From Pontibacter flavimaris (lineage in GTDB: Bacteria > Bacteroidota > Bacteroidia > Cytophagales > Hymenobacteraceae), in contig NZ_LVWA01000002.1 of the NCBI RefSeq assembly GCF_001907195.1, positions 248,001-312,000 of the forward strand: a stretch of DNA of 64,000 nt, given 5' to 3'. Of the stretch, positions 4,830-62,349 are shown piece after piece (positions within the stretch are counted from its first letter, which is position 1; each line of letters begins with the position of its first letter). The translations under genes and the position numbers were made by a program. The notes beneath the pieces are model-generated. The model saw only the letters and a program-made list of their open reading frames with translations, did not search any database and was not told the origin of the DNA.

Positions 4830-4877
4830 CACAACCTTATCGTAGTACCGTCTATACACAACCTAAATAAGATACAC

Positions 4878-34063: not shown

Positions 34064-35581
34064 CTAAGCCAGCTCCGGCTCCTGCACAAGGTAATGGCCC
34101 CCTACGCTCTGCTTTCTGCCCAGGCAGGCATTTATGGTAAGGGCAGCCACTGTGAGCATGTTCTGCAGCTCCCACACCGCAGGTGCTGCACCTGCCGCCC
34201 CACTTTCCTGCAATTGCCGCCTCAGCTGTTCCACCCGCTCTTTTGCCTCCAGCAGGTTTTCCTGGGTGCGCGCTATGCCTGCTTTCTCCCACATCAGGTG
34301 CCGCAGCTCCTCTTTTATACTTGCCAAGGCAGGAGACACAGCAACAGCAGCCTGGCCGTTAAACTCTGGAACTGTTATACTTTCTGTGTGCTCATACTTT
34401 TGTGCTACAGCGTGTGCCGCCGCCGCTTTGCCAAACACCACCCCCTCCAGCAGCGAGTTGCTGGCCAGGCGGTTGGCCCCATGCACCCCGGTGCAGGCCG
34501 CCTCCCCCACAGCGTACAGACCAGGCACAGTGGTTTGCCCATGCACATCCGCAACCACGCCCCCGCATTGGTAATGTGCCGCCGGCACCACCGGTATCAG
34601 GTCTCGTTCAGCCAGTATGCCTATACGTTTGCAGGTGTTGTAGATAAGCGGGAAATGCCGCTGCACATGTTCTTCCGGCAACTGCCGCGCATCCAGGTAG
34701 AGGCAGGGCGAGCTGTGCTGCTGCATCTCGTGGTACACGGCCCGGGCCACCACATCGCGTGGGGCAAGCGAGCCCTGCGCGTGGTAGCGGTGCATAAACG
34801 GCGTGCCGTCCGGCAGCACCAGTTCCGCGCCTGCACCCCGCAGCGCCTCGCTTATCAGGAAAGTATCTCTGGAGGCAGGGTTGTAGAGTGCCGTTGGGTG
34901 AAACTGGATGAACTCCATATGGCTGACCGCTGCTCCTGCCCTATAAGCCATGGCCAGCCCGTCGCCGGTGGCGATGCTGGGGTTGGTAGTGTGCTGGTAT
35001 ACTTGTCCCGAACCGCCGGTGGCCAGCACCACCGCCCTGGCAAGTATGGCTTTGGGTTCGCCGGTCTTCAGGTTCAGTAGCTGCACGCCCTGGCAGGCAC
35101 TAAGCTGCGTGCGTAGCTCCAGGGCCATGTGGTGCTCCAGTATAGAGATATTTGCATGCTGCCGGGCTACCTTGCCCAGCACCTGCTGCACGCTCAGGCC
35201 GGTGTGGTCTTTCACATGCACGATGCGGTGCTGGCGGTGGCCGCCTTCCAGCCCCAAGGCTATACGTTTGTCTTCATCCCCATCAAAGCAGACTCCCTGC
35301 TGCTGCAGCCAGTCTATACTTTCGGGCGCCCGCTCCACCATGAAACGCACCGCCGCCTCGTCGCACAGGCCTGCCCCGGCAACCAGGGTATCCTGCACGT
35401 GCTGCTCAAACGAATCCATTTCGCTCAGCACCGCGGCAATGCCGCCCTGCGCGAACATGGTGTTCGTCTCGGAAAGAGACGCTTTACAGACCACGGCCAC
35501 CCTACCGTGCGCGGCCGCCTGCAGGGCAAAGGTTAAGCCCGCTATGCCGCTGCCAAGCACTACATAATCAACCCGAAGCAT
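34064..35581 (-). CDS. nadB: L-aspartate oxidase
   Basis: 505 residues, the FAD enzyme that oxidises aspartate to iminoaspartate in de novo NAD synthesis. FAD-binding GSGIAGLTFA is at residues 9-18. AQGGIAA, GLEGGHRQHRIVH, ATGGSGQVYQHTTNP, and the C-terminal GAEL and YAVGEAACTGVHGANRLASNSL motifs are all present (each read in parts). The start lies two bases after the nadA stop, so the two are one operon. nadC is not in the window. Confidence 0.96.
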   Translation of the reverse strand: MLRVDYVVLGSGIAGLTFALQAAAHGRVAVVCKASLSETNTMFAQGGIAAVLSEMDSFEQHVQDTLVAGAGLCDEAAVRFMVERAPESIDWLQQQGVCFDGDEDKRIALGLEGGHRQHRIVHVKDHTGLSVQQVLGKVARQHANISILEHHMALELRTQLSACQGVQLLNLKTGEPKAILARAVVLATGGSGQVYQHTTNPSIATGDGLAMAYRAGAAVSHMEFIQFHPTALYNPASRDTFLISEALRGAGAELVLPDGTPFMHRYHAQGSLAPRDVVARAVYHEMQQHSSPCLYLDARQLPEEHVQRHFPLIYNTCKRIGILAERDLIPVVPAAHYQCGGVVADVHGQTTVPGLYAVGEAACTGVHGANRLASNSLLEGVVFGKAAAAHAVAQKYEHTESITVPEFNGQAAVAVSPALASIKEELRHLMWEKAGIARTQENLLEAKERVEQLRRQLQESGAAGAAPAVWELQNMLTVAALTINACLGRKQSVGGHYLVQEPELA

Positions 35582-35583
35582 TG

Positions 35584-36630
35584 TTATGCAAAGGCCAGCA
35601 TGCGCTCAATCGGGGCCAGGGCGCGGCGGCTGATCTCCGCATCCAGCGTTACCTCAAACAGTGCCTCTTTTTCCGTGCCGATGGCGCGCAGAGCCTCCAG
35701 CGTGCGCTGTATGGTTATCTGCTTCATGTGCGGACACTTGATGCACGGAACAATAAACTCCTTCTCAGGATACATGCCGCGCAGCGTAGCGCCCAGGTCG
35801 CACTCCGAGCCAAGTATAAACTGGCGGGTTTTGCTCTCGCCTACAAACCGGATGATGTCGGAGGTGCTGCCCACCACGCCCCCGGCACCGGTCAGCGCAT
35901 CGGCCACGGTATTGTCGGGCACCTCCCAGTGCACCAGCACCTGGGCCTCGGGGTACATCAGTTTCAGGCCGTTGATGCGCTGCGGCGTGAACTGCTCGTG
36001 CACCTCGCACTTGCCCTCCCAAAGTATAAGCTCCTTGCCTGTCTCGGCTTTAATCTTGGTTTGCAGGTTGCGGCCCATGAACAGGTCGGGCAAAAAGATG
36101 AGCTTATCGCCGCCCAGCGAGCGGGCAATGTCCAGGGCGTTGCGGGAGGTGCAGCAGATGTCGGCCTCGGCCTTGGTCTCGGCGTAGGTATTGATGTAGG
36201 CCACCACCGGCACGCCCGGGTACTGTTCTTTCAGCTTGCGCACATCGGCACCGGTTATACTTTCGGCCAGCGAGCAGCCGGCATCGAAGCTGGGCAGCAG
36301 CACCTGCTTCACGGGATTGAGCACCTTGGCGGTCTCAGCCATGAACTTCACGCCGCAGAAGATGATGTTATCCGCCTCCACGCTCTTGGCGGCCACGCTC
36401 AGGCCCAGCGAGTCGCCCACGAAATCGGCGATACCCCCGTCCTTGTGCTCCACCTGCAGTTCGGCGGGCATGTAGAAATGCGAAAGTATCACGGCGTTTT
36501 TCTGGCGTTTCAGCTCGCGGATCTCCTCCACGGCAGCCAGCAGTTCGGCCTCCTGACGTTCAAAGAAGGCACCAGGGTTCATGGCGCTGAGTTTCTCCAG
36601 GAATGCGCCTCGGGTTTGGGTAGTTAGCAT
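35584..36630 (-). CDS. nadA: Quinolinate synthase
   Basis: 348 residues. This [4Fe-4S] enzyme condenses iminoaspartate with dihydroxyacetone phosphate. The cluster cysteines are in FCGVKFMAETAKVL (Cys92), ADICCTSRNA (about 159/160) and PCIKCPHMK near the C-terminus. The substrate-binding HFYMPAELQ is at about 51-59. Its oxygen- and NO-sensitive cluster makes the position beside NO-defence and Fe-S genes suggestive. First gene of nadA-nadB. Confidence 0.96.
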   Translation of the reverse strand: MLTTQTRGAFLEKLSAMNPGAFFERQEAELLAAVEEIRELKRQKNAVILSHFYMPAELQVEHKDGGIADFVGDSLGLSVAAKSVEADNIIFCGVKFMAETAKVLNPVKQVLLPSFDAGCSLAESITGADVRKLKEQYPGVPVVAYINTYAETKAEADICCTSRNALDIARSLGGDKLIFLPDLFMGRNLQTKIKAETGKELILWEGKCEVHEQFTPQRINGLKLMYPEAQVLVHWEVPDNTVADALTGAGGVVGSTSDIIRFVGESKTRQFILGSECDLGATLRGMYPEKEFIVPCIKCPHMKQITIQRTLEALRAIGTEKEALFEVTLDAEISRRALAPIERMLAFA

Positions 36631-36753: not shown

Positions 36754-37230
36754 CTATTCCATACTACGGATTCTCGGCGTGTTTTCCACCTCCTGTACAT
36801 TCGTGATAAAGTACTCGCCGGAGTTGATGCCATCTACCAGCGTCTGGATGGTTTTGGAGCGGAATACTGCCAGCAGCTGCCCGCGGTAGGCCTTTATGTC
36901 GTCATGCAGCGGGCAGGGATGCGTGTCGGAGCATTCCTTCATGCCCATGCCGCACTTCCTGAAAGCCTCCAGGCCGTCGATGATCTGCACCACTTCCAGT
37001 ATGCTGATCTCGCTGGCCGGCCGGTGCAGAAAAAACCCGCCCCCAGGGCCTTTCACCGAGGCGATCACGCCTTTCCGGACCAGGTCCTGCAGGATCTTGC
37101 CCATGAAGTGCGCCGGCAGCTCCAGCTCCTTGGCAATTTCTTTTATCCCCACTTTAAGCCCCTGTGCATCATTCAGGGCGATGTACACAATGGCGCGCAG
37201 GGCATATTCGGTTGTTTTAGATAGTAGCAT
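36754..37230 (-). CDS. Rrf2-family regulator, NsrR/IscR-like
   Basis: 158 residues. A winged helix with the Rrf2 start LLSKTTEYALRAIVYIA and the recognition region VRKGVIASVKGPGGGFFLHRP. Three cysteines follow, Cys93, Cys100 and Cys106 (C-x6-C-x5-C), suited to an Fe-S cluster as in NsrR and IscR. Being the last gene of an operon of hemerythrin, DUF2249 and Fe-S assembly genes, it is most likely an NO or Fe-S sensor that controls the surrounding genes. This is inference from context. Confidence 0.88.
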   Translation of the reverse strand: MLLSKTTEYALRAIVYIALNDAQGLKVGIKEIAKELELPAHFMGKILQDLVRKGVIASVKGPGGGFFLHRPASEISILEVVQIIDGLEAFRKCGMGMKECSDTHPCPLHDDIKAYRGQLLAVFRSKTIQTLVDGINSGEYFITNVQEVENTPRIRSME

Positions 37231-37271
37231 TGGTAAAGTCTATGTTCATCTGACATTGACGCGGCCGCAAG

Positions 37272-37598
37272 TTACGATTTCCCCTCCAGCTGCCGCATGC
37301 CTTCCTCGGTGATCATCTCGGTACTCCACGGCGGCGACCACACCAGGGTTACTTTTACGTCGAGGCTCGGAAAACGCTTTATCAGGATCTGCTCCGTAGC
37401 CGTTACGATGGTGCCGCTCATGGGGCAGCCGGGCGTCGTCAGCGTCAGGTCCACGGCCAGCACCCCCTCCTCCGTCAGGCTAACCTCATACACCAGCCCC
37501 AGGTCCACTATGTTGATACCCACTTCCGGGTCGATGATATACTTTAAGGCTTCGTACACTTCCAGGCCGAAATCCTCAGGCATGTTTTGTGTTTCCAT
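37272..37598 (-). CDS. MIP18/DUF59-family Fe-S assembly protein
   Basis: 108 residues. The family core is VYEALKYIIDPEVGINIVDLGLVYE and then LTLTTPGCPM, with the conserved Cys of the PGCP motif (about 59). Related proteins (SufT, PaaD, YitW) help to mature Fe-S proteins. Its first 23 bases overlap the preceding gene, so translation is coupled. In this operon it probably supports rebuilding of clusters damaged by NO. Confidence 0.9.
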   Translation of the reverse strand: METQNMPEDFGLEVYEALKYIIDPEVGINIVDLGLVYEVSLTEEGVLAVDLTLTTPGCPMSGTIVTATEQILIKRFPSLDVKVTLVWSPPWSTEMITEEGMRQLEGKS

Positions 37599-38886
37599 AG
37601 GTAAAGGGTTTTAATTCTTGAACTTTATGCAGCAGCATGTGGAACACGTTGGCCGTGTACAGCAGGGAGGTAAGCGTGAAGCCAATGGCCCCGGCAAGTA
37701 TAACCTGCTCGCTGCGGAGCAGCACCCCCACCACTAAAAGTATAAACCCGAGCAGGTAGCTGATGTTTTGCCAGCGCAGCAGGGCATGGCTGTAAATATC
37801 TTTGGGGAGCGGCGTTTTAAAGCGCCCCACGTAATCCTCGTACGCGTGCATCCACACAATGAAAGGCAGTGTCTTGAAAGTTTGCCCCAGTATAAGCGCC
37901 GAGATGAACCCCAGGAAGACCGAGATGCCATAGACCAGGTAAATCGATGACAGCAGCGCCTGCGGAAGCGCCAGCCTGGAACTTACCACCAGCACCAGCA
38001 GAAGCGGCAGCAGAAGCAGGGCCAGCGCCACAAAGGTTTGCCTCATGCCCAGGTCCAGGTCCTGGCGCTGGCGGGTCCTGGCCGCGTCGCGCAGGTATAA
38101 CAGGAACAGCGCCACGCCGCCTATCACCAACGCCGCGTATACCGGCAGCAGAGCTGTCTGGAAAAGCAGGTGATCGATGATGAAAAGGACCAGCCCCGCG
38201 TTGATCAGGTTATAGGACCAGCTGAGCTTTTTGGTGTCCTCGTGGTGCGCCAGCAAAAACATGGGAATCAGCTTGGACCCCACCCCGATGATGAGCAGCA
38301 GAAACCAGCCGGCCATGCCGATGTGGGCGTGCAGCTTAAGGTAGTGCGTGTGCTCCACCGGCAGGAACGGCGTCGTGAAGTTCACCGCCATCAGCAGCCC
38401 CACCAGCCCGGTTACCAGCAGCCAGATAGCCGAGGTAACGATAAAATCGGACTCTACGGTCCATTTGGGGGCCTTGCGGGCTGTTTGCGCCACGTTGATG
38501 TTAAAAAGTATAAAGGCGATGACCAGGCTACAGGCTGCCACGTGCAGCACCCAGCCCAGCTCAAAGTTCCAGAAGGACCAGGCCAGAAGGATGGATCCCA
38601 CGCCCAGGAACGCGAAGGCGGCTACGGCCAGCTTCTCTGAGTAAAGCTTGCAATCCAGCACCACCGGCAGCAGTTGGTACAGGGCCCCGAAGATAAGCAT
38701 GGTAGCCCAGCCCAGTGCCGCCACGTGCGTCAGGGTGAGCAGTTTAGGGTGGAAGTAGTGGCCGCTAAAGGCATCGGTGGAGAAAAGCAGCAACACGCTC
38801 AGGGCCACAAATGCCAGAGAGGCAAAGGCGTAGTGCGGCAGCACAACCCATTTTCCCGGCGAGTTAGATGTAGTGGCGGTGCTCAT
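37576..38886 (-). CDS. Haem-copper-oxidase-subunit-I-like membrane protein
   Basis: 436 residues with about 12 hydrophobic helices. Histidines sit where low-spin haem ligands occur in CcoN/NorB-like proteins: HPKLLTLTHVAALGW (about 46-60) and HYLKLHAHIGMAGW (about 183-196), but no full set of copper/iron ligands is evident. Such proteins accompany NO-handling genes in Bacteroidota and other phyla (NnrS and CcoN-like families), probably as haem- or NO-binding membrane proteins. The exact function is unknown. Confidence 0.75.
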   Translation of the reverse strand: MSTATTSNSPGKWVVLPHYAFASLAFVALSVLLLFSTDAFSGHYFHPKLLTLTHVAALGWATMLIFGALYQLLPVVLDCKLYSEKLAVAAFAFLGVGSILLAWSFWNFELGWVLHVAACSLVIAFILFNINVAQTARKAPKWTVESDFIVTSAIWLLVTGLVGLLMAVNFTTPFLPVEHTHYLKLHAHIGMAGWFLLLIIGVGSKLIPMFLLAHHEDTKKLSWSYNLINAGLVLFIIDHLLFQTALLPVYAALVIGGVALFLLYLRDAARTRQRQDLDLGMRQTFVALALLLLPLLLVLVVSSRLALPQALLSSIYLVYGISVFLGFISALILGQTFKTLPFIVWMHAYEDYVGRFKTPLPKDIYSHALLRWQNISYLLGFILLVVGVLLRSEQVILAGAIGFTLTSLLYTANVFHMLLHKVQELKPFTYGNTKHA

Positions 38887-38895
38887 GGTAATTCG

Positions 38896-39720
38896 TTATC
38901 TGTAAATAAGAAGGTATACTTCGTTCGGGCCGACTTCGTTTATGGCTACCTTAAAGCCACGCTCCTCCAGCTGTGGTAACAGGAACTGCGGCACCCGCTT
39001 GTGCACCACGTATAGCGCCTCCTCGGTTGGCAGGTTTTCCAGCTCGCCCAGAATGGTGATCATAGGCTGCGGCATTTCCAGGTGGCGCACATCCACGCGT
39101 TTCACCTTGCCGGCAAACCTGGCCAGGGTCTTTTCAAAGTCGTTTCCGGCAGGAGCTATACTTTCCACTGCTGTGGCCTCCGGCGCTTTCTCCAGCCAGA
39201 AATAAGTATAAACCAGGTCTGGTGACTTGGTGTCGGTAAAGTAGCCGTAGCCTTTCTTTTTAAGTATGGCGATGAGCGGTGTGGGCTCGAACGTGTTGAT
39301 GATCAGCAGCGCGTTGGTGGCGTCTATGCCGTCCACGGCGTCCATTATCTTCAGAAACGGGTCGCTGCCGGTGGCAATATCCTCGCGCACATCCAGCTGC
39401 AGCAGGCGCTCTGCGGGCAGCTCGACCAGGAAAGCCGGCATTCCGGTAGTAGCAGGTATGGATTGGGACTGTGTCATGCCTTTGGTAGTTGTCTCATCAC
39501 TGACGGTAAAGCCCAGCGGCCTCAGCTTTTCATAGAAGCGCTCCACATCACAGCCCCCGATGCGGGCAGCATCCGCGATGGTTACCCGGGAGGCCAGCAC
39601 CTTGCGCAGCAGCGGGTTGCGCAGCTTCTCAAAATGCCTGTTTATACTTGCGATGGCTTCTATGGCAGCCGGATTCTCTTTTATCAGGGCTGATATCTTG
39701 GTGTTGGCTGCTATGCGCAT
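38896..39720 (-). CDS. DUF1858-DUF2249-DUF2249 protein
   Basis: 274 residues, three modules. Residues 1-70 are DUF1858-like (ISALIKENPAAIEAI, IADAARIGGCDVERF). Two DUF2249 domains follow: LQLDVREDIATGSDPF to YTYFWLEK (about 105-178), and RVDVRHLEMPQPM to EVYLLIYR (about 208-274). DUF2249 is a TusA-like fold often found with hemerythrins, RIC proteins and NO genes. The two-base gap to the hemerythrin gene shows co-translation. The DUF1858 cysteine (GGCD) is kept. Confidence 0.85.
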   Translation of the reverse strand: MRIAANTKISALIKENPAAIEAIASINRHFEKLRNPLLRKVLASRVTIADAARIGGCDVERFYEKLRPLGFTVSDETTTKGMTQSQSIPATTGMPAFLVELPAERLLQLDVREDIATGSDPFLKIMDAVDGIDATNALLIINTFEPTPLIAILKKKGYGYFTDTKSPDLVYTYFWLEKAPEATAVESIAPAGNDFEKTLARFAGKVKRVDVRHLEMPQPMITILGELENLPTEEALYVVHKRVPQFLLPQLEERGFKVAINEVGPNEVYLLIYR

Positions 39721-39722
39721 GG

Positions 39723-40226
39723 TTAGGCGACTTTGGCTTTTTTAACCCAGAACTCCGGTGTGAAGTTGTCCAGGCGCGGGTCGTGCTTGTGCTCAAGCAG
39801 CTGGCCGGCCAGCTCCAGTTCATCCGAATGGGCTGCGGCCTGCAGGTACGGGAACAGCTCTCTTTCCTCCCAGCGGATGTGGTCGGTCAGGTCCTGGTCC
39901 AGCACTTTAAACAGGTCCCTGTTCATCGGGCTGCCCTCTTCTATCAGCTCCACCAGCGCCTCGATCAGCTTATGCTCTTCATGCATCCTGGTGCGTTGGG
40001 TGTCCTCGTGGGGCAGCAGCCTTTCCATCAGCCACTCCTCCTCCTGGCAGTGCTCCTTTAGTATGTTTTCCCAGAAATAACGCACGTAGGCGCGCATCAC
40101 CTCCAGATCAGTCCCGTTCTTCAGCCCCTGGCGCAGCTTCCAGCAAAACAGCAGCCCAAAGTGGTGCTCCCGTGACAGCGGAACCAGGCTTTTATCCCTT
40201 TTCTGGGGTGCCATCGTCTTTTTCAT
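39723..40226 (-). CDS. Hemerythrin-domain protein
   Basis: 167 residues. The HHE cation-binding pattern is visible: LSREHHFGLLF, then KEHCQEEEWLM (about 57-67), RMHEEHKLIE, and DHIRWEERELFPYL. These histidines and acids form a di-iron site that can bind O2 or NO. It opens a tight operon with DUF2249, the oxidase-like protein, MIP18 and Rrf2. RIC lies upstream across a 122-base gap filled by a G/C-run repeat. Confidence 0.9.
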   Translation of the reverse strand: MKKTMAPQKRDKSLVPLSREHHFGLLFCWKLRQGLKNGTDLEVMRAYVRYFWENILKEHCQEEEWLMERLLPHEDTQRTRMHEEHKLIEALVELIEEGSPMNRDLFKVLDQDLTDHIRWEERELFPYLQAAAHSDELELAGQLLEHKHDPRLDNFTPEFWVKKAKVA

Positions 40227-40244: not shown

Positions 40245-40340
40245 TTTTTACCTCCCCCTAACTAACCCCCTCCTAAAAACAGGAGGGGGAGTTAGTCTTG
40301 GCTCCCCCCTGTTTTCAGGGGAGGGCCGGGTTAGGGTACT
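40245..40340. repeat. G/C-run hairpin repeat between ric and the hemerythrin gene
   Basis: CCCCCTCC-taaaaac-AGGAGGGGG and CCCCCTG-ttttcag-GGGAGGG. Same family as the hairpins at 2062-2195, 23139-23183 and 52724-52822. It may stop part of the transcription coming from ric. Confidence 0.7.
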
Positions 40341-40348
40341 AGGGTATC

Positions 40349-41308
40349 TTACTTCAGTACTTCCTTCTCCATCTCGATCGCCTTCGGGAACAGGATGTTG
40401 TTCTCGAGGTGGATGTGGCGGAAAAGGTCATCCTCGAACTCCTTTAGCTTCTTGAACGCAACCGTGTAGGTGGCGCAGGCATCGGCAGGCAAGGTATAGT
40501 TGTCAGTCAGCTCACGGATTCGCTCCATCTCACCGCCCGCACTCTCGTGCTCCATCTCCATCATGTTGATCGGGTTCTGGATAGAGCCAAAGCCGGCCGG
40601 CTCCAGTTTCACGCCGCTCTTCTTGGCCTCTTCCAGCTGCTTGATGTATGGGAACAGCACGCGCTCCTCTTTCGGCATGTGCGCCTCCAGCTCGTTGGCC
40701 ACGTTGGTGTAGTGCTTTACTACCTCTACTAGCTCCGGATGGCGGCTGCCGTGCACGCGGGCAATTTTGGTGGTGTATTCATATAGGGCCGGGATCGCCT
40801 CACGCAGGTACTTATGGTGCATGTTCACGATGTAATCCGCTAAAAAGCCCAGGTCCCACTTGTCGTACTCCGCATCGCGCTCCTTCTCGGCCTGGTCCAT
40901 AGCAATCAGCTCGGCTTCCAGTTCGTCCTGGCTGATGCCTTTCTCGGCGCACACCTGCTTCACCGACTTTTTACCGCCGCAGCAGAAATCGATGCCATAC
41001 TTCTTAAACACCTGCGCTTTGCGGTAGTCTTTGGCTACCAGCTCGCCCACGCTCTCCCCTTCTTCCGGCGTCAGCTTCGAGATCTGCACCTCCCATACTG
41101 CGGGGCCCTGCTCCAGGTACTCCCACTTAAACACGTTGCCGCGCTCGCCCAGCAGCTGGTAGTACAGCGGCTTCGGGTCGTGGTCGTTATGAATGATAAA
41201 GGCCTCGCCACCTTTGAGTTTGTCAAACCACTGAAAAATGGTTGGGTGCTTCATGCGTGGCTCCAGTACGGTTACGTCCAGTGTTTCTATTGTTTGTGTA
41301 ATTGCCAT
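40349..41308 (-). CDS. ric: RIC/ScdA-type di-iron Fe-S cluster repair protein fused to DUF2249
   Basis: 319 residues. An N-terminal DUF2249 domain (about 1-75, LDVTVLEPRMKHPTIFQWF) is fused to an ScdA_N domain (about 85-140, with the DFCCGGKK motif) and a hemerythrin-like di-iron domain (about 150-315: MHHKYLREAIP, HMPKEERVLFPYI, EMEHESAGGEME, HIHLENNILFPKA). RIC proteins restore Fe-S clusters damaged by NO or peroxide. It is divergent from nrdJ, and the shared intergenic region holds a Crp/Fnr-like site and AAAGGTA repeats. Confidence 0.93.
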   Translation of the reverse strand: MAITQTIETLDVTVLEPRMKHPTIFQWFDKLKGGEAFIIHNDHDPKPLYYQLLGERGNVFKWEYLEQGPAVWEVQISKLTPEEGESVGELVAKDYRKAQVFKKYGIDFCCGGKKSVKQVCAEKGISQDELEAELIAMDQAEKERDAEYDKWDLGFLADYIVNMHHKYLREAIPALYEYTTKIARVHGSRHPELVEVVKHYTNVANELEAHMPKEERVLFPYIKQLEEAKKSGVKLEPAGFGSIQNPINMMEMEHESAGGEMERIRELTDNYTLPADACATYTVAFKKLKEFEDDLFRHIHLENNILFPKAIEMEKEVLK

Positions 41309-41346: not shown

Positions 41347-41424
41347 TGTAAAGGTAAAAGACGGTTTTTAAAAATAAAAGAGTTAAAGGTATTTTATTAT
41401 TTTATTCAACGCATTACCTTTACA
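41347..41424. promoter_or_regulatory. Inverted pair of TGTAAAGGTAA with a third half-site
   Basis: TGTAAAGGTAA (41347-41357) and its exact reverse complement TTACCTTTACA (41414-41424), with TTAAAGGTATT (41383-41393) between them. This AT-rich region lies directly upstream of ric. It looks like an operator, perhaps for the Rrf2 regulator. Confidence 0.4.
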
Positions 41425-52975: not shown

Positions 52976-53743
52976 CTACAGATCCCTCCTGGAGAAAATC
53001 CTTCTGGAACTCAGGAAAGGCACCAGCACCCACAGCAGCAGCAGGCCAAAGGCCATGCTTATCCCCCACAGACTGCCCAGTATGCTTTTGTACAGCGCCC
53101 CGGTGTAGCCCATCAGCGCCGACACATCCAGGTTCAGCAACACGATGATGCGGCCCAGGTCTACCGGGTTGAGTGCCGTCATCACCAGCGTGGCATACTC
53201 CAGCGGGTAATCGCCGAAAGAGTAAAGTATAAACAGCACGATGCCGTCATAGATCAGGGCGAAGTAAAACCACAGCATCAGCGCAATACCGATACCCTTG
53301 GCTTTGTCGCGGGTGATGACCGAGGCCAGGAACGCCATCGCCACAAAGATAAACGTGATGAACACACCCGTGAGCACCAGGTACAACCCCGTGAGGCTGG
53401 CCCCGAACAGCAGCACCGGCACGCCCACGCCCAGCAAAAACGCGCCGGAGAGCGAGCAGGCTACGCCCAGGTATTCGCTCAGGAAGATCTTTTTGCGGTT
53501 GATGGGCTGCGCCACGAGCAGTTCCATAAACTCATAGGAGTTGTAGAAGTGCGTGGTGGCAAACACAATGCTTATCAGCGGCACCGTCAGCAGCACCAGG
53601 TTCAGGAGGCTAAGTATGGCCTTGTCGGGGCTGCCACCCAGGTTAAACAACCCGATGGAGAGCAGCAGCAAAAACACCGCATACGCCAGCACTATTTTGT
53701 TCCGGATGATATCGTAGAAAACGTATTTGAGAACTTTGTTCAT
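52976..53743 (-). CDS. nosY: Nitrous oxide reductase ABC permease NosY
   Basis: 255 residues with six hydrophobic helices. N-terminal VLKYVFYDIIRNKIVL and the conserved FATTHFYNSYEFMELLVAQPINRKKIFLSEYLGV (read in parts) mark the NosY/ABC-2 permease family. With NosF and NosD it supplies copper or sulfur for NosZ maturation in the periplasm. Last gene of the operon; three bases after nosF. Confidence 0.93.
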   Translation of the reverse strand: MNKVLKYVFYDIIRNKIVLAYAVFLLLLSIGLFNLGGSPDKAILSLLNLVLLTVPLISIVFATTHFYNSYEFMELLVAQPINRKKIFLSEYLGVACSLSGAFLLGVGVPVLLFGASLTGLYLVLTGVFITFIFVAMAFLASVITRDKAKGIGIALMLWFYFALIYDGIVLFILYSFGDYPLEYATLVMTALNPVDLGRIIVLLNLDVSALMGYTGALYKSILGSLWGISMAFGLLLLWVLVPFLSSRRIFSRRDL

Positions 53744-53746
53744 GGT

Positions 53747-54451
53747 TTACTCCTCCTCCATAATTTTTGCGATGGCCTTGCCCAGGCGCTCCTCGTTGGT
53801 GTGGGCCTTGATGTCTGCGATGGTCTCATGGAACTTCACATGCCCGTCCATCATGCACATCACCTCATCGGCCACCTCCTCTATCTCACTCATAATGTGC
53901 GAGGTGATCAGTATCAGCTTGCCTCTTTTCTTCTCTTTAAGAATTTTGCACTTGAGAATCTCGGCCGAGATGGGGTCCAGGCCGGCGGTTGGCTCGTCGA
54001 GGATGAGGATCTTCGGGTCGAACATGAAGGCCAGCGCGGCGCTTACTTTCTGCTTGGTGCCCCCAGAAAGCGAGCCCATGCGCTTCTCGTACATCCCCTC
54101 CAGGCCATACAGCCCGATCAACTCCTCATCCACCACCTTGGCATCCTTGCGGATGTCGCGGATCATCTGGATCACCTGCCGGATCTTCATGTTCTCGGGG
54201 TAGCGGCCTATCTGCGGCATATAGCCGATCTGGCTGCGGTAGGCATACTTCTTCAGCACGCTCTCGCCCTCTATCTTAATATCCCCGCTGTCGGGTAACA
54301 CCATGCCGAGGATACACTTGCTCATGGTGGTTTTGCCGGAGCCGTTCGGGCCGATGACCGACACTACCCTGCCTGCGCCGAAGCTAACGCTAACGTCCTT
54401 CAGCACCTGCAGCTTCCCGTACGACTTGCGTAAGTTTTCTATCGTTATCAT
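53747..54451 (-). CDS. nosF: Nitrous oxide reductase ABC ATPase NosF
   Basis: 234 residues. Walker A GPNGSGKTT (about 34-42), Q-loop at IGYMPQ, signature LSGGTKQKVS, Walker B ILILDEP and the switch histidine in ITSHIMSE are complete. It powers the NosY transporter. Its start overlaps the end of nosD by 62 bases. The N-terminus MITIENLRKSYG is normal for the family, so the overlap appears real. Confidence 0.94.
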   Translation of the reverse strand: MITIENLRKSYGKLQVLKDVSVSFGAGRVVSVIGPNGSGKTTMSKCILGMVLPDSGDIKIEGESVLKKYAYRSQIGYMPQIGRYPENMKIRQVIQMIRDIRKDAKVVDEELIGLYGLEGMYEKRMGSLSGGTKQKVSAALAFMFDPKILILDEPTAGLDPISAEILKCKILKEKKRGKLILITSHIMSEIEEVADEVMCMMDGHVKFHETIADIKAHTNEERLGKAIAKIMEEE

Positions 54452-55709
54452 GATTTATTTTGCTCATCATTGGTTGTTCATCAACCAGGTTCTCAGGTAT
54501 AAAACTCGGCAGCACTTTTTCTATGTTGTCCATCAGGTCTACCATAAAGCTGCGCATAAACATCACGGAGGGAGGCACCCGCTCCACCAGCATCGAGTAC
54601 AGGCTTACCGGGCGGTAGGGCACGTCGCCTACCTTGTCTTTGTCCAGGTCGTAGCCGCTGTACTTGTCCCAGTAGTTGTTCTCAAAATGGTTGTGCTGCG
54701 AATTGCCGTTGGTGCTCACGTCAAAGGAGTTTCCGGTAAAGTTGTTTAGCCGGAAGGTATCCTCCAGGCACGTGGTCATCACTTTTATCGCCCAGCCGTT
54801 TCGGTCAAAATCGTTGTTTTTTATATCCAGCCGGCTGGAGCTCTCCATGTGGATGCCCGTGGTGTTGCGCCGGAAGTGGTTGTTGCGGATTACGCTGTCC
54901 CGGATCTCCTTCAGCAGCAGGCCGTAGGAGGCGGCACCCCAGTTATCCTCAAAGGTGTTATGCTCCATCTGCACGTTGCTCGTGTACATTACGGCCACGC
55001 CCGCCCCGTTGCTACGGAAGGTGTTATGGGTGTACACGTTGCGGTCCGAGAACATAAAGTGCAGCCCGTAGCGCTGGTTCTTATGGCTCAGGTTATCGCG
55101 CACCTGGCTGTCCTTCACCACCTCCAGGTAAATCCCGTCGCGGTGGCCCTGCACATCGTTGCCGCTGATCTCTACTTCGTCGGTATAGTATAAATGGATG
55201 GCGTTGCCCAGTGAGGATTCCATCTTATCCTTGTTCTCCCCCTGCACCACATTATTCTTTATCACAATACCCTCTGAACCCTCCAGGTAAATACCATAAA
55301 AGGTCTTCAGGATGGTATTGTCCAGGATGCGGAGGTTGCGCCTGCCCTTGGCCCGGATAGCGGCGTCGTTCTGCCTGTAGCTGGTGGCCACGTTTTTCAA
55401 CGTGAGCCCCTGCACAGTCACATCGTCGGACGTGATGGTGATAAGCTGCCCGGTAAAGTTGCCGTCGATCACAGGGTTGTTCTTCCCGATCAGGGTGAGG
55501 GGTACATTAATCTCTATCCCGGACTCCTGGTACACGCCGCCGTCCACCAGTACGGTATCTCCGGGCTTTGCCTTTTGCACGGCCTGCTTTACGGAAGTAT
55601 AGCTACAGCTCGGACAGACCTTCAGGGTGCTACCGGAGGCCGTCTGGCCCCACAGCAGCAAAGCAGCGGCAAGTATGAAAAAAGTATATTTACTGAAATT
55701 TGTCATCAT
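54390..55709 (-). CDS. nosD: Periplasmic copper-processing protein NosD
   Basis: 439 residues. A signal peptide (about 1-26) precedes a right-handed beta-helix of CASH-type repeats (VKQAVQKAKPGDTVLV, then many IxxNxxxxN turns such as IVIKNNVVQ, VEISGNDVQGHRDGIYLE). The C-terminal helix passes the usual end and overlaps nosF. NosD delivers material for CuZ assembly in NosZ. The start overlaps nosL by 20 bases. Confidence 0.94.
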   Translation of the reverse strand: MMTNFSKYTFFILAAALLLWGQTASGSTLKVCPSCSYTSVKQAVQKAKPGDTVLVDGGVYQESGIEINVPLTLIGKNNPVIDGNFTGQLITITSDDVTVQGLTLKNVATSYRQNDAAIRAKGRRNLRILDNTILKTFYGIYLEGSEGIVIKNNVVQGENKDKMESSLGNAIHLYYTDEVEISGNDVQGHRDGIYLEVVKDSQVRDNLSHKNQRYGLHFMFSDRNVYTHNTFRSNGAGVAVMYTSNVQMEHNTFEDNWGAASYGLLLKEIRDSVIRNNHFRRNTTGIHMESSSRLDIKNNDFDRNGWAIKVMTTCLEDTFRLNNFTGNSFDVSTNGNSQHNHFENNYWDKYSGYDLDKDKVGDVPYRPVSLYSMLVERVPPSVMFMRSFMVDLMDNIEKVLPSFIPENLVDEQPMMSKINHDNDRKLTQVVREAAGAEGR

Positions 55710-56151
55710 TCTTTACAGCTAAAACAACCTGTTCCCAGTTGAGCAATTGGCCGTCATGCTCCTGTTGCATCTGATTGGCGGCCGCCTCATCCTTCACGGC
55801 TGTGAGGTTCATCCCCATGGGGCTTGGCAGCGCCTCGCTTTGCAGGAAGTGCGCGCTGTGCGCATCCACCAGTTCGCCAGGGTTGGTGAAATCTGTTACA
55901 AGTAGGTAAGCCGCTTTGTCGCCTACCTCCGGCTGCTCTGCCACGTAGGCCGCAAGGCACTCGGCAGAGTCGAAGAAGTAGGGTTTGCCGTTCTCATTCA
56001 CCAGTTCTGCCCCGTACCGGTTATCAGACACGGTCATGTTGCAATGGGCACAGTTGGCCTCCCCATAAGGGATCGGCTTGGGCTCCACGGAGCAGCCGGC
56101 AAGGATTACAAGTATAAAAAGCAGGCTTACGCTACTTACTAACAGTTTCAT
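55690..56151 (-). CDS. nosL: Copper chaperone lipoprotein NosL
   Basis: 153 residues. Lipobox LAGC (about Cys20). The NosL copper-binding region CAHCNMTVSDNRYGAELV (about 35-52) and KPYFFDSAECLAAYV are clear. It carries Cu(I) to NosZ. Spacing to the upstream unknown gene is two bases and to nosD minus 20, so it is part of one operon. Confidence 0.93.
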   Translation of the reverse strand: MKLLVSSVSLLFILVILAGCSVEPKPIPYGEANCAHCNMTVSDNRYGAELVNENGKPYFFDSAECLAAYVAEQPEVGDKAAYLLVTDFTNPGELVDAHSAHFLQSEALPSPMGMNLTAVKDEAAANQMQQEHDGQLLNWEQVVLAVKNDDKFQ

Positions 56152-56833: not shown

Positions 56834-58867
56834 TTAGTTAACACTTGCCGTTGCGGGTGGAACGGGCCTTTTCTCGCCCATCCTGAACTTGATTGGCACG
56901 TTTGATCCTTTCGGGGACACCCTGACATATCCCTGCATCTCCTGGTGAAGCGCAGAGCAGAAGTCAGTACAGTAGAACGGAAACACACCTTCCTGTTTCG
57001 GTACCCAGCGCAGTGTCTGTGTAGCGCCCGGCATGATCAGGGTCTCGGCGTTGTTGGCGCCCATCACCGCGAATCCGTGCGGCACGTCCCAGTCCTGCTC
57101 CAGGTTCGTCACGTGGAAGAGCACGGTGTCGCCTACCTGGATTCCCTCGATGTTGTCCGGTGTTAAGTGGCTTCGGATGGCGGTCATCTTCACGGTAACT
57201 GTTTTTCCCTTGCGGGTCACGCTCACGTCCTTCTCATTCTTAACTGCCTCCGGGTGCGTGTTCTCGTCCAGTTTGTGGAACTTGACACTGTTCGGTGCCA
57301 CTAAGTCTGCCTTGATGGCCTGCGCGTAGTGCGGTTCGGCTACTGTCGGGAAGTCAAGAAGCATCTTCATTTTCTCTCCGCTGATGTCGATCAGCTGGGC
57401 AGAGTGCATCAACTCCGGTCCTGTTGGCAGGAAGCGGTCTTTTGTGATCTTGTTCATCACCACCAGGTACTTGCCATAAGGCTTCTCCGTGTCACCACCA
57501 GGGATCATCAAGTGACCTGGGGAGTAGTACACAGGGATCCTATCCGTCACCTTCAGGTCTTTCACGTTCCACTTCACCACCTCAGACGATACGAACATGG
57601 TAGAGTAGGCATTGCCTTTGCCGTCGAACTCGGTGTGCAATGGTCCTAAGCCCGGCTCTTTTACTTCGCCGTAAAGTACAGACTCATACTTGAACACCGG
57701 GATACCGTTCACCTCACCGTCAAAGTCCTTGTTCTTGATCGCCTCCTCCATTTTAGAGAAGGAGAACACTGGCAGCGAAGAGGCAAGCTTGCCGTTTACC
57801 ACCATGTACTCGCCGGTTGGGTCTACGTCGATACCGTGCGGTGACTTAGGCGCCGGCAGCAGGTACATCATGCCCGGGCACTCTTCCGGAAGCAGGTAGC
57901 GTACGGTTTTCTTCACTTCGGACTTAGCCTGGAAAGAACCGTGGTCCAGCTTGTTGTGGTAGTAGTTGGCCGGCATTTCGTGTGCCTTTCCTTCTGCCGC
58001 ATACTTGGCTGCCAGTTTCCAGTTAATGGCCGCCAGGTAGTCTCTGTCGTTCTGGGAAGCACCCAGTTCCTTCAGCGTAGCGGATTTCTCGGTATTGTAC
58101 GTGGTAAAGAACACCCAGTCGTTAGACGGGCCTTTGCCACCGTTGGCCAGGTCGTAGTCGAAGCCTGGCACCAGCACCTGGAAGTCCAGCTCCATGTCGC
58201 CATCTTCCTTATCCACCTTGATAAAGGAGATAGAGCCTCTGAACTTGTCCTTGTACTCTTCCATACTTACGTCGGCAGTGCCGCCTTTCATATCCAGCGG
58301 AACAGAGAAGCGTGTACCGGCAATAACGTACTCGTTGTTATTGGTTGGGTATGGGGAGCAGTGGTTACCTGCTGAGTTCGGGATCTCCATGATCTCCACG
58401 GTCTCGAAGGTTTTCAGGTCGATACGGGCCACGCGCGGCGTGTTGTTACCGTTCACGAAAAGCCAGCGGCCATCGGCCATACCGTCGGTACGGGACAGTT
58501 TCGGGTGGTGCAGGTCATCCCAGGGCACAAAGCCATGCGAGGTCTGCAGCATCGGCTTGGTCTCCTCGTTGTAGCCGTAGCCGTTCTCCGGGAACTGCGA
58601 GAATACCGGGATGATCTTCAGCAGCCTGCCGGAAGGGATGCCGTACACGGACATCTGGCCGTTAAAGCCGCCAGACAGGAAGGAGTACAACTCATCGTGC
58701 TCGCCTGGTGCCACATACACGGCAGAGGCTGCATCAGAGTCAACAGCCTTATCGCTGTCGTCGCCGCCGGTTTTGTTACAACCTTGTAGCGCCGCACCGG
58801 CAGCCACCGCCATTAGAAGGGCTGCCTTAGGTGCTACTTTCTTGAATTTACTGATCAGGGTTTCCAT
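56834..58867 (-). CDS. nosZ: Nitrous oxide reductase NosZ, clade II type
   Basis: 677 residues; reduces N2O to N2 in the periplasm. The N-terminus has a Sec-type signal with lipobox-like LQGC instead of a twin-arginine motif, the mark of clade II (atypical) NosZ. The seven-bladed propeller carries the CuZ histidines (DDLHHPKL, NHCSPYP, PHGIDVDP, LHTEFDGKG). The C-terminal cupredoxin has the CuA ligands in FYCTDFCSALHQEMQGY (about 630-646). First structural gene after the cytochrome. Confidence 0.97.
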   Translation of the reverse strand: METLISKFKKVAPKAALLMAVAAGAALQGCNKTGGDDSDKAVDSDAASAVYVAPGEHDELYSFLSGGFNGQMSVYGIPSGRLLKIIPVFSQFPENGYGYNEETKPMLQTSHGFVPWDDLHHPKLSRTDGMADGRWLFVNGNNTPRVARIDLKTFETVEIMEIPNSAGNHCSPYPTNNNEYVIAGTRFSVPLDMKGGTADVSMEEYKDKFRGSISFIKVDKEDGDMELDFQVLVPGFDYDLANGGKGPSNDWVFFTTYNTEKSATLKELGASQNDRDYLAAINWKLAAKYAAEGKAHEMPANYYHNKLDHGSFQAKSEVKKTVRYLLPEECPGMMYLLPAPKSPHGIDVDPTGEYMVVNGKLASSLPVFSFSKMEEAIKNKDFDGEVNGIPVFKYESVLYGEVKEPGLGPLHTEFDGKGNAYSTMFVSSEVVKWNVKDLKVTDRIPVYYSPGHLMIPGGDTEKPYGKYLVVMNKITKDRFLPTGPELMHSAQLIDISGEKMKMLLDFPTVAEPHYAQAIKADLVAPNSVKFHKLDENTHPEAVKNEKDVSVTRKGKTVTVKMTAIRSHLTPDNIEGIQVGDTVLFHVTNLEQDWDVPHGFAVMGANNAETLIMPGATQTLRWVPKQEGVFPFYCTDFCSALHQEMQGYVRVSPKGSNVPIKFRMGEKRPVPPATASVN

Positions 58868-58906: not shown

Positions 58907-59431
58907 TTAGCTATTCTGGTCGTTCTGTCTCAGGAACTCCAGCAGGGCCCTGGCATCAGACTCAGTGATGTTCTGGTTTGTCATCTGTGTTAAGTGCTCA
59001 GCAAGCAGTTTCTTGGCTTGTGGGTCCTTCTTGGTCATCTCCTCTGGGTTGATCATCATGTTCATGATCCACTCTGGCTTGCGGCGATCCGTTACACCAG
59101 CCAGGCCAGGGCCCACGATCTTCTGGTCAGACAACTGGTGGCAGGCCGAGCACTTGCCCTCGAAGATAGTCTTGCCCTCAGCGGCGAGCGCCTCGTCTAT
59201 TCCCTCACCCACTTCCACAGACGTAACAGGACCTACTCCTTTTCCATCGTCCTCAGCAGGTGCTTCAGCCTGGTTAGCCAGCCCGCTCTCTTCTTGATCG
59301 GTGGCAGCGGTGTTCTCGCCGTCTCCTGAGGAGCAGCTGAAAAGCACGGTACTAAACAGCATGGCCATAACGGCTAATTGCAGTGGTTTAAACAATTTGG
59401 TCATCATCGATTCACTTGGATTTTTTCTCAT
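58907..59431 (-). CDS. Cytochrome c lipoprotein of the nos operon
   Basis: 174 residues. Lipobox LFSC near residue 33, an acidic linker, then a monohaem cytochrome c domain with CSACH (about 93-97) and the methionine ligand region MTNQNITESDARALLEFL. It probably donates electrons to NosZ. First gene of the operon, 39 bases before nosZ. The start may be the internal MMTKLFKP at 59407. Confidence 0.92.
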   Translation of the reverse strand: MRKNPSESMMTKLFKPLQLAVMAMLFSTVLFSCSSGDGENTAATDQEESGLANQAEAPAEDDGKGVGPVTSVEVGEGIDEALAAEGKTIFEGKCSACHQLSDQKIVGPGLAGVTDRRKPEWIMNMMINPEEMTKKDPQAKKLLAEHLTQMTNQNITESDARALLEFLRQNDQNS

Positions 59432-59483: not shown

Positions 59484-59514
59484 CAAAAGTATACATGTTG
59501 GCCTGTCCAACAAA
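59484..59514 (-). promoter_or_regulatory. Promoter of the cyc-nos operon
   Basis: Minus strand TTTG (59511-59514), exactly 19 bases, TACTTTTG (59484-59491). The minus-7 box is built on a TATACTT copy. Start predicted near 59480. Confidence 0.7.
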
Positions 59515-59535
59515 AGACCTTTATCTCTTTTAATG

Positions 59536-60048: not shown

Positions 60049-62349
60049 ATGAAGTATAAAAAACTCTGGCTGGGATTCATCGCTGTGATGGTGGGATCCT
60101 TTGCTGTACTCGGCTACTACGGAACCGAGATCTACAGACAAGCGCCGCCTATTCCCGACAAAGTGATAACCGCCTCCGGCGAGGTGCTGTTCACCGCACA
60201 TGACATCAAGGACGGGCAGAACGTATGGCAGTCGGTTGGCGGACAGGAACTGGGCTCTATCTGGGGCCACGGCGCCTACGTTGCCCCCGACTGGAGCGCC
60301 GAGTGGCTGCACAAAGAGGCCATGTTCTTTCTGGATACCTGGGCACAGCAGGAGAAAGGCGTAACCCACGACGAGTTGGACGAGGAAATACAGGCCATGC
60401 TGCAGGCGCGCCTGCAAAAGCAGATACGGGCCAACACCTATGACGCTGAAACAGGCGTGCTCACCGTGTCCGACCTGCGCGCGGCGGCCATTGCCGATGT
60501 CAGCAGCCATTACACCGGCCTGTTTATGAATGACCCGGCGCTGGCCGTGTACCGCGATGCCTACGCCATGAAGGACAACACGGTGAGCGACCCGGAGCGC
60601 ATGCGCAAGATGAACGCCTTCTTCTTCTGGACTTCCTGGGCCTGCGTTACCGAGCGCCCCGGCAAGAACATCACCTATACCAACAACTGGCCCGCCGAGA
60701 AACTGGTGGCCAACGAGCCCAGCTCTGACCTCATCATCTGGACAGGCTTCAGTGTGATCATACTTATCGCTGGCGTGGGGCTGCTGGCTTATTACTATGC
60801 CTCCAACCGCGAGGAGGAGATCGACACCTCCAAACTGCCGAAGCAGGACCCGCTGCTGGGCCTGAAGGCTACGCCCTCCATGAAGGCGACGCTGAAATAC
60901 TTCTGGATCGTGACGGCCCTGATCCTGGTGCAGGTAACGCTGGGCGTGGTGACGGCGCACTACGGCGTGGAAGGCCAGGCACTCTACGGCTTCCCGCTGG
61001 CTGATTACCTCCCCTACTCCATCACCCGCACCTGGCACGTGCAGCTGGCTATTTTCTGGATCGCAACGTCCTGGCTGGCTACCGGCTTATACATTGCCCC
61101 GGCCGTGTCGGGCCACGAGCCCAAGTTCCAGAAACTGGGCGTCAACTTCCTCTTCACGTGCTTATTGATCATTGTGGCGGGCTCGCTGGCCGGGCAGTGG
61201 TACGGCGTGATGCAGAAGCTGGGCTACGGAGAGAACTTCTGGTTCGGCCACCAGGGCTACGAGTATGTGGATTTAGGTCGTTTCTGGCAGATCTTCCTGC
61301 TGGTGGGCCTGTTCCTGTGGCTGGCATTGATGGTGCGCGCCATTATGCCTGCCTTTAGAAATGACGTGGAAGGCCGCCACCTGCTGGGCATGTTCCTGAT
61401 CTCCTCGGCTGCCATCGCCATCTTCTACGCCTCCGGCCTGATGTGGGGACAGCACACCAACCTGGCCATTGCCGAGTACTGGCGCTGGTGGGTGGTACAC
61501 CTGTGGGTAGAAGGCTTCTTCGAGGTATTTGCCACCGTGGTGATCGCCTTCCTGTTTGTGCGCATGGGCCTGCTGGATACCAAAATGGCCACCACAACGG
61601 TGCTGTTCTCCACCATCATCTTCCTGTTTGGGGGTATCATCGGCACATTCCACCACTTATACTTTAGCGGCACGCCAACTGCCGTGATGGCGCTGGGGGC
61701 CACCTTCAGCGCGCTGGAAGTGGTGCCGCTCGTGCTCATCGGCTTCGAGGCCTACCATAACCTCGAACTCAGCCGCGCCACACAGTGGATCAAGGCTTAC
61801 AAATGGCCGATCTACTCGTTTGTGGCCGTGGCCTTCTGGAACCTGGTGGGGGCCGGTGTGTTCGGCTTCGTGATCAACCCGCCGATTGCGCTCTACTACA
61901 TGCAGGGACTCAATACCACACCGGTTCACGCGCACACGGCCTTGTTTGGGGTCTACGGCATGCTGGGCATCGGCCTGATGCTGTTCGTGCTGAAGGGCCT
62001 CTCGGCCCGCCGCCGCTGGAAGGATGGGGTGATCAGCTTCGCGTTCTGGTCCATTAACATCGGTTTGATGCTGATGGTGCTGATAAGCGTGCTGCCGATC
62101 GGGCTGCTGCAAACCTGGGCCAGCGTGGAGTACGGCCTGTGGTACGCCCGCTCCATGGAGTTTATGCAGACGGATACGATGGAGCTCCTGCGCTGGCTCC
62201 GCGTGGTAGGTGACACTATATTCGCCGGTGGCGTGGTGGCGCTGGCCTGGTTCGTGATCGGCCTGAAAACAGGCTGGTCTCTGGAGGCCGATGAGGATGT
62301 GTCTGCGGCGGATTACCCTTCCGCCCGCAAAACAAAGGCTTTGAAGTAA
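60049..62349 (+). CDS. norB: Quinol-dependent nitric oxide reductase (qNor)
   Basis: 766 residues; reduces NO to N2O using quinol. The N-terminal extension (WQSVGGQELGSIWGHGAYV, about 61-79) is the haem-free cytochrome-c-like domain specific to qNor; there is no CxxCH. The NorB core has HTNLAIAEYWRWWVVHLWVE (read in parts), FHHLYFSGTP and HAHTALFGVYG with the haem and FeB histidines, and about 14 helices in all. No norC or norDQ is needed or seen. Together with nos it gives NO to N2. Confidence 0.97.
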   Translation: MKYKKLWLGFIAVMVGSFAVLGYYGTEIYRQAPPIPDKVITASGEVLFTAHDIKDGQNVWQSVGGQELGSIWGHGAYVAPDWSAEWLHKEAMFFLDTWAQQEKGVTHDELDEEIQAMLQARLQKQIRANTYDAETGVLTVSDLRAAAIADVSSHYTGLFMNDPALAVYRDAYAMKDNTVSDPERMRKMNAFFFWTSWACVTERPGKNITYTNNWPAEKLVANEPSSDLIIWTGFSVIILIAGVGLLAYYYASNREEEIDTSKLPKQDPLLGLKATPSMKATLKYFWIVTALILVQVTLGVVTAHYGVEGQALYGFPLADYLPYSITRTWHVQLAIFWIATSWLATGLYIAPAVSGHEPKFQKLGVNFLFTCLLIIVAGSLAGQWYGVMQKLGYGENFWFGHQGYEYVDLGRFWQIFLLVGLFLWLALMVRAIMPAFRNDVEGRHLLGMFLISSAAIAIFYASGLMWGQHTNLAIAEYWRWWVVHLWVEGFFEVFATVVIAFLFVRMGLLDTKMATTTVLFSTIIFLFGGIIGTFHHLYFSGTPTAVMALGATFSALEVVPLVLIGFEAYHNLELSRATQWIKAYKWPIYSFVAVAFWNLVGAGVFGFVINPPIALYYMQGLNTTPVHAHTALFGVYGMLGIGLMLFVLKGLSARRRWKDGVISFAFWSINIGLMLMVLISVLPIGLLQTWASVEYGLWYARSMEFMQTDTMELLRWLRVVGDTIFAGGVVALAWFVIGLKTGWSLEADEDVSAADYPSARKTKALK

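Follow-up and report, generated by a model that had tools for sequence, protein, structure and literature searches.

The locus studied here raises the question of what a compact set of genes around an oxidase-like membrane protein does in the neighbourhood of the genes for nitric oxide (NO) and nitrous oxide (N2O) reduction. It lies in Pontibacter flavimaris, in a window of 64,000 nucleotides (contig NZ_LVWA01000002.1, positions 248,001 to 312,000 of the forward strand), and a preliminary description had presented it as a tight operon of five genes and a candidate for an undescribed system that senses NO and rebuilds iron-sulfur (Fe-S) clusters at the membrane. We find that the operon is real and that it is a conserved accessory module of denitrification. 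It has published relatives in Thermus and is enlarged here by a RIC-type di-iron protein, a stand-alone hemerythrin-fold protein (Hhe) and an Rrf2 regulator, which accompany a DrpB-type protein, a haem-copper-oxidase homologue labelled HCOH in this report and a MIP18 protein. That the module answers NO, or the damage done by NO to Fe-S clusters, is the explanation which we favour with modest confidence.

The reading frames agree with the tight arrangement given in the preliminary description, the five minus-strand genes following one another at distances of 2, 9, -23 and 41 bases, and Pfam confirms the hemerythrin, DUF1858-DUF2249, MIP18 and Rrf2 identities; the presence of a di-iron protein is likewise supported. 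The unit is larger than these five genes, however: it starts with the RIC-type gene 122 bases upstream of Hhe, nadA and nadB follow the operon on the same strand, and a nos/qNor island lies nearby. The RIC-type protein scores 255.8 bits against TIGR03652 (cut-off 204.7) and thus belongs to the RIC/YtfE/ScdA family, its Cys and His/Glu ligand columns being conserved in the alignment; Hhe reaches only 17 bits with the same model. Two DUF2249 matches in the DrpB-type protein exceed the Pfam cut-off. The MIP18 protein carries the PF01883 domain and stays below the cut-offs of the SUF-associated models TIGR02945 (84 of 143.4 bits) and TIGR03406 (80.2 of 202.6 bits). Between RIC and Hhe, two overlapping inverted repeats (40266-40308) form a possible attenuator or terminator, so that co-transcription of RIC with the remaining genes is not certain. 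No RNA family or tRNA came up in scans of the window.

The gene order does not reflect chance, and the arrangement is strongly conserved. In a sample of 60 genomes of the family, its own included, the search for HCOH gave some match in 33 and a full-length one in 25, and the remaining eight matches cover a short stretch within frames of 729-786 amino acids that are probably cbb3 oxidase subunits. All 20 relatives whose loci were fetched keep RIC, Hhe, DrpB, HCOH and MIP18 in the same order and on the same strand, whereas Rrf2 is found in 18 and nadAB in nine; since nadAB adjoins the operon only in its own genome and in these nine relatives, we do not regard it as part of the core. Besides its own genome, 25 of 395 genomes of the phylum encode a full-length HCOH. 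DrpB and MIP18 flank HCOH in 29 of 29 loci (these 25 and four further family loci), with five DrpB matches lacking the DUF1858 part (L092, L103, L104, L109, L110) and one locus, L115, cut by a contig end; neighbours include NosZ (7 loci), the quinol NO reductase qNor (5), Nos accessory genes and Crp/Fnr regulators (9 of 25). Among 80 named loci, DrpB is present in all and ends at most 200 bp from HCOH in 79, MIP18 is present in 75, RIC in 47, Rrf2 in 46 and Hhe in 36, and nos or qNor genes occur within the examined stretch in 15. From these counts we take DrpB-HCOH-MIP18 as the core and RIC, Hhe and Rrf2 as a local set. The nearest named relatives of HCOH are found in Pontibacter species (88-91% identical). 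Alignments comprised 77 of the 80 named HCOH sequences (A4; three cut or ambiguous), 62 of 67 length-filtered DrpB sequences out of 80 (A5), 20 of 24 other family proteins (A1) and 31 loci (A3).

A connection to denitrification is indicated by co-occurrence as well as by distance. DUF2249 and HCOH are found in the identical 25 of the 60 family genomes, and qNor (17 of 60) and NirK (11 of 60), counted over cut-off, fall entirely inside these 25 carriers. For independent genomes the chance of such nesting would be 2.8e-9 for qNor and 1.3e-5 for NirK, figures that are only a guide because the genomes are related. In 17 of 17 qNor genomes, qNor is located on the contig of HCOH at a distance of 4.8-34.6 kb. 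The region of the window is itself a denitrification island, as it holds a cytochrome c, NosZ, apparent nos accessory genes, qNor and a globin, with about 12 kb between RIC and the start of the nos genes and qNor. The link to NO metabolism seen in the preliminary description is thereby borne out.

The operon, nosZ and qnor have a palindrome in common, AATAAAAGAC-N6-GTCTTTTATT, which resembles the type-1 sites of IscR. For IscR, the accessible part of PMC6599224 gives the type-1 consensus ATASYYGACTRWWWYAGTCRRSTAT with a spacer of 7 and the ligands C92, C98, C104 and H107; the operon site reads ATA-AAA-GAC-N6-GTC-TTT-TAT and follows the type-1 plan ATA-N3-GAC-N6-GTC-N3-TAT. The palindrome is conserved ahead of RIC in the own genome and in 20 relatives; a matrix was trained on these 21 RIC promoters and applied to 18 island loci, mostly of the same genomes (529,038 bases, overlapping stretches counted more than once). 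Here, 18 non-RIC matches scoring at least 18 were spread over 16 of the 18 loci, and 17 of them precede cytochrome c-nosZ, qNor or a second oxidase-like gene; apart from the remaining match by small frames (L168:4428), the island scan gave no match of at least 15 outside these promoters and that of RIC. In 60 distant loci outside the training family (799,866 bases; control, 20 Markov resamples) we obtained 26 matches of at least 17 against 1.35 expected, and 14 of at least 25 against none in the 20 resamples. Nineteen of the 26, including one in a Chlorobiota locus, precede a module gene by at most 150 bp. The other seven are elsewhere (L202, L214, L225, L227, L234, L243, L252), that of L225 being 144 bp before a small gene preceding NosZ and those of L243 and L252 being an identical site before an unrelated frame. 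Within the 25 phylum loci, matches of at least 17 occur in four (L087, L089, L092, L097).

Some weaker or isolated sites were also recorded. At L097:11543, a site (17.8) precedes an Rrf2 gene by 42 bp, suggesting autoregulation. Upstream of nirK in the own genome there is a weak site (14.8; L124:2575), which was not counted but makes nirK a possible member of the regulon; the three further nirK loci in the scan, L121-L123, lack one. Matches at window position 4866 (13.2, start of a frame reading as sucD) and in C5 (9.6) were treated as chance.

The operon-linked Rrf2 protein is likely the regulator of the promoters with the palindrome, as far as this can be predicted from sequence. Its set of ligands, Cys, Cys, Cys and His, is kept in 61 of 61 Rrf2 rows, and together with the Rrf2 domain the three cysteines mark it as a regulator of the Fe-S type, as the preliminary description had held. 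Like NsrR, IscR and RirA it combines the Rrf2 domain, three cysteines and an IscR-like histidine with an IscR type-1-like site. Unlike them, it scores far below the cut-offs (NsrR equivalog, NF008240, 55.2 of 182 bits; IscR, 60.4 of 207.6; RirA, 72.8 of 193), has nosZ, qnor and the operon as predicted targets and would use a spacer of 6 instead of 7. Rrf2 is present in 13 of 18 distant loci with a site compared to 13 of 42 without (p 0.0045, a value that treats related genomes as independent). On the Rrf2 tree, the label of a site in the locus (match of at least 17) changes seven times against 18.8 when shuffled, and none of 500 shuffles was as low. Two site-less clades of seven rows each differ in the DNA-binding region, one with EHTVGK or EHTIGK and the other with GRYGG (five rows named Weeksellaceae). 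By analogy to the family, Rrf2 would bind the palindrome, repress and respond to NO. A description of such an Rrf2 regulon was not found among the matches listed (titles and abstract beginnings; subscription journals lay outside the search).

In the case of HCOH, the family libraries give little: Pfam yields only a sub-threshold COX1 match (27.5 versus 34.8 bits), and in Pfam and NCBIfam together there is no curated family of its own, only COX1/cbb3 below threshold. The AlphaFold2 (AF2) model (pLDDT 92.2, pTM 0.91) has the 12-helix fold of the catalytic subunit of haem-copper oxidases and NO reductases, with cbb3 CcoN (8smr_E; Z 34.5, root-mean-square deviation 3.2, 397 aligned) and cNOR (4xyd_A; Z 32.3) as best matches. 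These catalytic subunits possess six metal-binding histidines. Among 78 HCOH sequences, H54 and H186 are kept in all 78, H188 in 69 and H420, past the last helix, in 74, and the third repeat has no conserved histidine in its corresponding helix; the six-histidine set is therefore absent, in line with the earlier view of an oxidase-like protein without the full ligands. The homologues of Thermus, Rhizobium and a haloarchaeon keep H54 and H186 too but have lost H188. In the HVH motif of CcoN it is the second His that aligns with H54, and by sequence, in the repeated HxxxxGW, H188 corresponds to H54 and H186 to the first His. The haem-copper oxidase family has a three-fold pseudo-symmetry, and in catalytic members the pore between repeats 1 and 2 is without haem; by this symmetry H54 and H186 would face that pore. 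Lacking the catalytic histidines, HCOH probably does not work as an ordinary oxidase or NO reductase, and because H54 and H186 are invariant, the binding of one haem appears likelier than catalysis.

The HCOH families and NnrS of Pei et al. 2014 are reportedly proteins with the 12-helix oxidase/NO reductase (NOR) fold, two conserved histidines and a denitrification context. HCOH of the window shares this fold, two conserved histidines and the denitrification context with them; in contrast to NnrS, it has no NnrS Pfam match (PF05940, E 0.01). No NnrS was found in the 60 family genomes either, in a search whose controls were also silent. HCOH as a replacement of NnrS was dropped on account of these silent controls and because Rhizobium etli carries NnrS and an HCOH homologue side by side.

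In profile comparisons the two DUF2249 domains of DrpB, D1 and D2, match each other with a probability of 96.5%, and the DUF2249 domain of RIC is matched with 78% by D1 and only 26% by D2. A search with the DrpB model gave no fold match below E 0.001; leads are SirA/TusA-like matches (3hz7, TMt 0.75) and, by sequence, 2fi0 for DUF1858. The idea that Hhe and DrpB are a split second copy of RIC was dropped, DUF1858 and ScdA_N having a probability of 2.8% in the profile comparison. The DrpB match at L044:8357-9180 is divided between two frames, which may reflect a frame-shift or an error of sequencing.

A DrpB with published denitrification phenotypes is known from Thermus thermophilus. According to the accessible parts of Chahlafi et al. 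2018 (PMC6282519), deletions of drpA/drpB alter the expression of dnr and nar and the nitrate dependence, drp expression depends on DnrT in an organism that uses DnrS/DnrT, and the sensing model is called tentative and incompletely fitting by its authors. The DrpB-type protein of the window has the DrpB architecture and shares 30-31% identity over 99% with the DrpB-position protein of 14 Thermus records. On Thermus plasmids, a run of DUF2249, DrpB, hypothetical, protoglobin, HCOH and MIP18 genes stands straight after nar. Like the window, this run joins DUF2249 and DUF1858-2xDUF2249 proteins to an HCOH homologue and a metal-sulfur cluster assembly factor; unlike the window, it includes the hypothetical and protoglobin genes, and RIC, Hhe and Rrf2 are not annotated in it. 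The protoglobin (L264:13227-14066), between DrpB and HCOH, is a further haem gas binder. R. etli p42f has DUF2249-HCOH-DUF2249-MIP18 between nor-type genes and NnrS/nirK, sharing DUF2249, HCOH and MIP18 in one run with the window, but no DUF1858 is named and no Rrf2 or hemerythrin stands in the run, and a Crp/Fnr regulator is nearby. A haloarchaeon shows three DUF2249 genes and HCOH beside nirK, with no MIP18 named there; the one Ensifer record examined was unannotated. A link of DUF2249 with the haem-copper oxidase superfamily is also in print (PMC11218638, in its accessible part, citing Pei et al. 2014). "Undescribed" is therefore too strong for the DrpB type and the DUF2249-oxidase link, and the points not found in print among the matches listed are the common operator and what the oxidase-fold protein with its two histidines does.

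What computation establishes is that the genes are linked and co-occur, that HCOH has the oxidase fold and two invariant histidines, and that the promoters have a palindrome in common; Rrf2 binding, repression, the NO signal, haem binding and the chemistry of the single proteins are inferred and might fit together as follows. Rrf2 would hold an Fe-S cluster on its three cysteines and one histidine and, while the cluster is intact, would sit on the palindrome at the operon, cytochrome c-nosZ and qNor promoters. NO would destroy the cluster and thus free the genes. RIC and Hhe, as di-iron proteins, would deal with iron and nitrite/NO, MIP18 and the DrpB-type protein might help to mature or protect metallo-enzymes, and HCOH, with its oxidase fold and two invariant core histidines, might use one haem as a sensor or buffer of NO or redox state. 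A wider proposal is tentative and, taken as a whole, unlikely: that a single Fe-S Rrf2, conserved from Pontibacter as far as Chlorobiota, acts as the NO/Fe-S switch of N2O and NO reductase genes in much of the Bacteroidota via AATAAAAGAC-N6-GTCTTTTATT, and that HCOH holds a single bis-His haem (H54 of repeat 1, H186 of repeat 2) in the third pseudo-symmetric pore, empty in catalytic oxidases, as NO sensor or buffer.

Several points weigh against a module that answers NO through Rrf2. Regulator binding and expression effects are predictions from sequence, and the haem of HCOH is deduced from the invariant histidines. Eight of the 25 family carriers have no qNor and 14 no NirK over cut-off. Two of the 25 (G052, G008) keep somewhat weaker sites but not the operon's Rrf2, so that another Rrf2 could bind; a 41-44% Rrf2 paralogue lies nearer nirK in both. 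Among the distant loci, Rrf2 is missing from the examined stretch in five of the 18 that have a site and present in 13 of the 42 that have none; of the 20 Hymenobacteraceae loci, L189 has Rrf2 but no clear site (best score 14.9). The annotations of the Thermus and Rhizobium stretches contain no Rrf2, from which we conclude that it is not part of the core. In the own 4.6-Mb genome the stricter palindrome occurs in four places, two of them the RIC and nos promoters, compared to two for the reversed control. A looser palindrome was discarded as non-specific (51 of 60 whole genomes matched, counts about those of the reversed control), and therefore only the stricter pattern and the matrix were used. 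The palindrome might belong to another regulator, for example Crp/Fnr or a different Rrf2, with the operon's own Rrf2 inactive on it. Crp/Fnr genes, which accompany 9 of 25 phylum copies and occur in three of the 18 site-bearing distant loci, would suit this, as would the two genomes with a site and without the operon's Rrf2. However, the nine Crp-linked loci among L087-L111 are without a match of at least 17 (best 14.9), the site has the IscR type-1 plan and it clusters on the Rrf2 tree, and we consider this alternative doubtful.

Other explanations concern the role of the proteins. The module could serve the maturation of metal centres in the denitrification enzymes (nitrate, nitrite and NO reductase) and not NO defence, with DrpB-HCOH-MIP18 as an assembly or quality-control complex and RIC and Hhe as bystanders on a shared promoter. 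We regard this as rather unlikely. In its favour, DrpB-HCOH-MIP18 stays together while RIC, Hhe and Rrf2 vary, the set stands directly after nar in Thermus and between nor-type genes and nirK in R. etli, and MIP18/DUF59 is an Fe-S assembly family. Neither qNor nor NirK can be the universal client, though, because both are missing from many carriers, as counted above; nar was seen in none of the frames of the window from 32 to 64 kb, which were looked over by eye and are the only part of the genome where it was sought. A nitrate/NO sensing device as proposed for Thermus DrpA/DrpB, in which the membrane protein senses and DrpB relays to the regulator, would agree with the Thermus deletion effects and with the joint presence of DrpB and HCOH homologues there. 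The reservations of the authors of that model and its reliance on DnrS/DnrT speak against it, with no common regulator in the Thermus, Rhizobium and haloarchaeal stretches, and its chance seems small. A membrane pathway of Fe-S cluster repair, as in the preliminary description, is quite improbable. It would explain why MIP18, RIC and an Fe-S type regulator occur in one unit; but no SUF/ISC scaffold or desulfurase was found in the operon (frames by eye; Pfam/NCBIfam scans), and nothing puts repair at the membrane. For RIC/YtfE, moreover, recent work argues in its accessible part for the reduction of nitrite to NO and not for repair, iron donation by YtfE being seen only under conditions that harm its own centre (PMC9052748).

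Bacteroidota possess many N2O reductase genes, and to our knowledge little has been established about what switches them on. With one operator and one regulator predicted for nosZ, qnor and the operon, the question becomes directly testable. What HCOH does, once established in one organism, should hold for many others, as the histidines are conserved from bacteria to a haloarchaeon and DUF2249 genes stand at every examined locus. The features of the window are collected in Table 1.

Table 1. Genes and predicted sites of the denitrification module and island in the window.
Feature	Position	Strand	Basis or remark
RIC-type di-iron protein with extra N-terminal DUF2249 (DUF2249-ScdA_N-hemerythrin), first gene of the unit	40349..41308	-	TIGR03652, PF10006, PF04405, PF01814
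Hhe, stand-alone hemerythrin-fold protein	39723..40226	-	PF01814, 37.8 bits (cut-off 25.3); His/Glu ligand motifs by eye
DrpB-type protein, DUF1858-DUF2249-DUF2249	38896..39720	-	Pfam; Thermus similarity; AF2 pLDDT 89.1
HCOH, 12-helix haem-copper-oxidase homologue, invariant H54 and H186	37576..38886	-	AF2, fold search, His counts
MIP18/DUF59 metal-sulfur cluster assembly factor, 23-base overlap with HCOH	37272..37598	-	PF01883, 55.5 bits (cut-off 23.5)
Rrf2 regulator, C93-x6-C100-x5-C106-x2-H109	36754..37230	-	PF02082, 105.2 bits (cut-off 30); TIGR00738
nadA and nadB, adjoining the operon	34064..36630	-	Pfam/NCBIfam
Palindrome AATAAAATAC-CTTTAA-CTCTTTTATT (minus-strand reading)	41373..41398	.	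64-65 bp upstream of RIC start; predicted Rrf2 operator
Second palindrome	59509..59534	.	Score 28.4, RIC-only matrix; precedes cytochrome c-nosZ by 78 bp and qNor by 514 bp
Cytochrome c ahead of nosZ	58907..59431	-	PF00034
NosZ nitrous oxide reductase	56834..58867	-	PF18764, 126.1 bits
Four genes reading as nosY, nosF, nosD, nosL	52976..56151	-	Named by eye from frames
qNor-type quinol nitric oxide reductase	60049..62349	+	PF22085, 250.9 bits; PF00115, 210.5 bits

Some further genes were noticed on the way. Directly after MIP18, nine of the 25 phylum loci have a gene for an oxidase-like/DUF2871 protein of four-helix size, with 151 amino acids (e.g. L103:6191-6646). Six DUF2249 matches were counted in the own genome compared to three in each of the 24 other family carriers; a three-DUF2249 protein is encoded on its contig C12 (L116:8692-9447, minus strand) beside frames reading as urease accessory genes. 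Beside the island, a bacterial-like globin (45086-45481, plus strand; PF01152) is a possible NO dioxygenase partner. The second oxidase-like membrane protein (45960-47297, minus strand) was recognized by eye and has HAHSHAALLGW near its N-terminus and no Pfam match; its similarity to HCOH, of which it may be a paralogue, is weak (33%). Its relatives in L174 and L175 have the palindrome in common with qNor.

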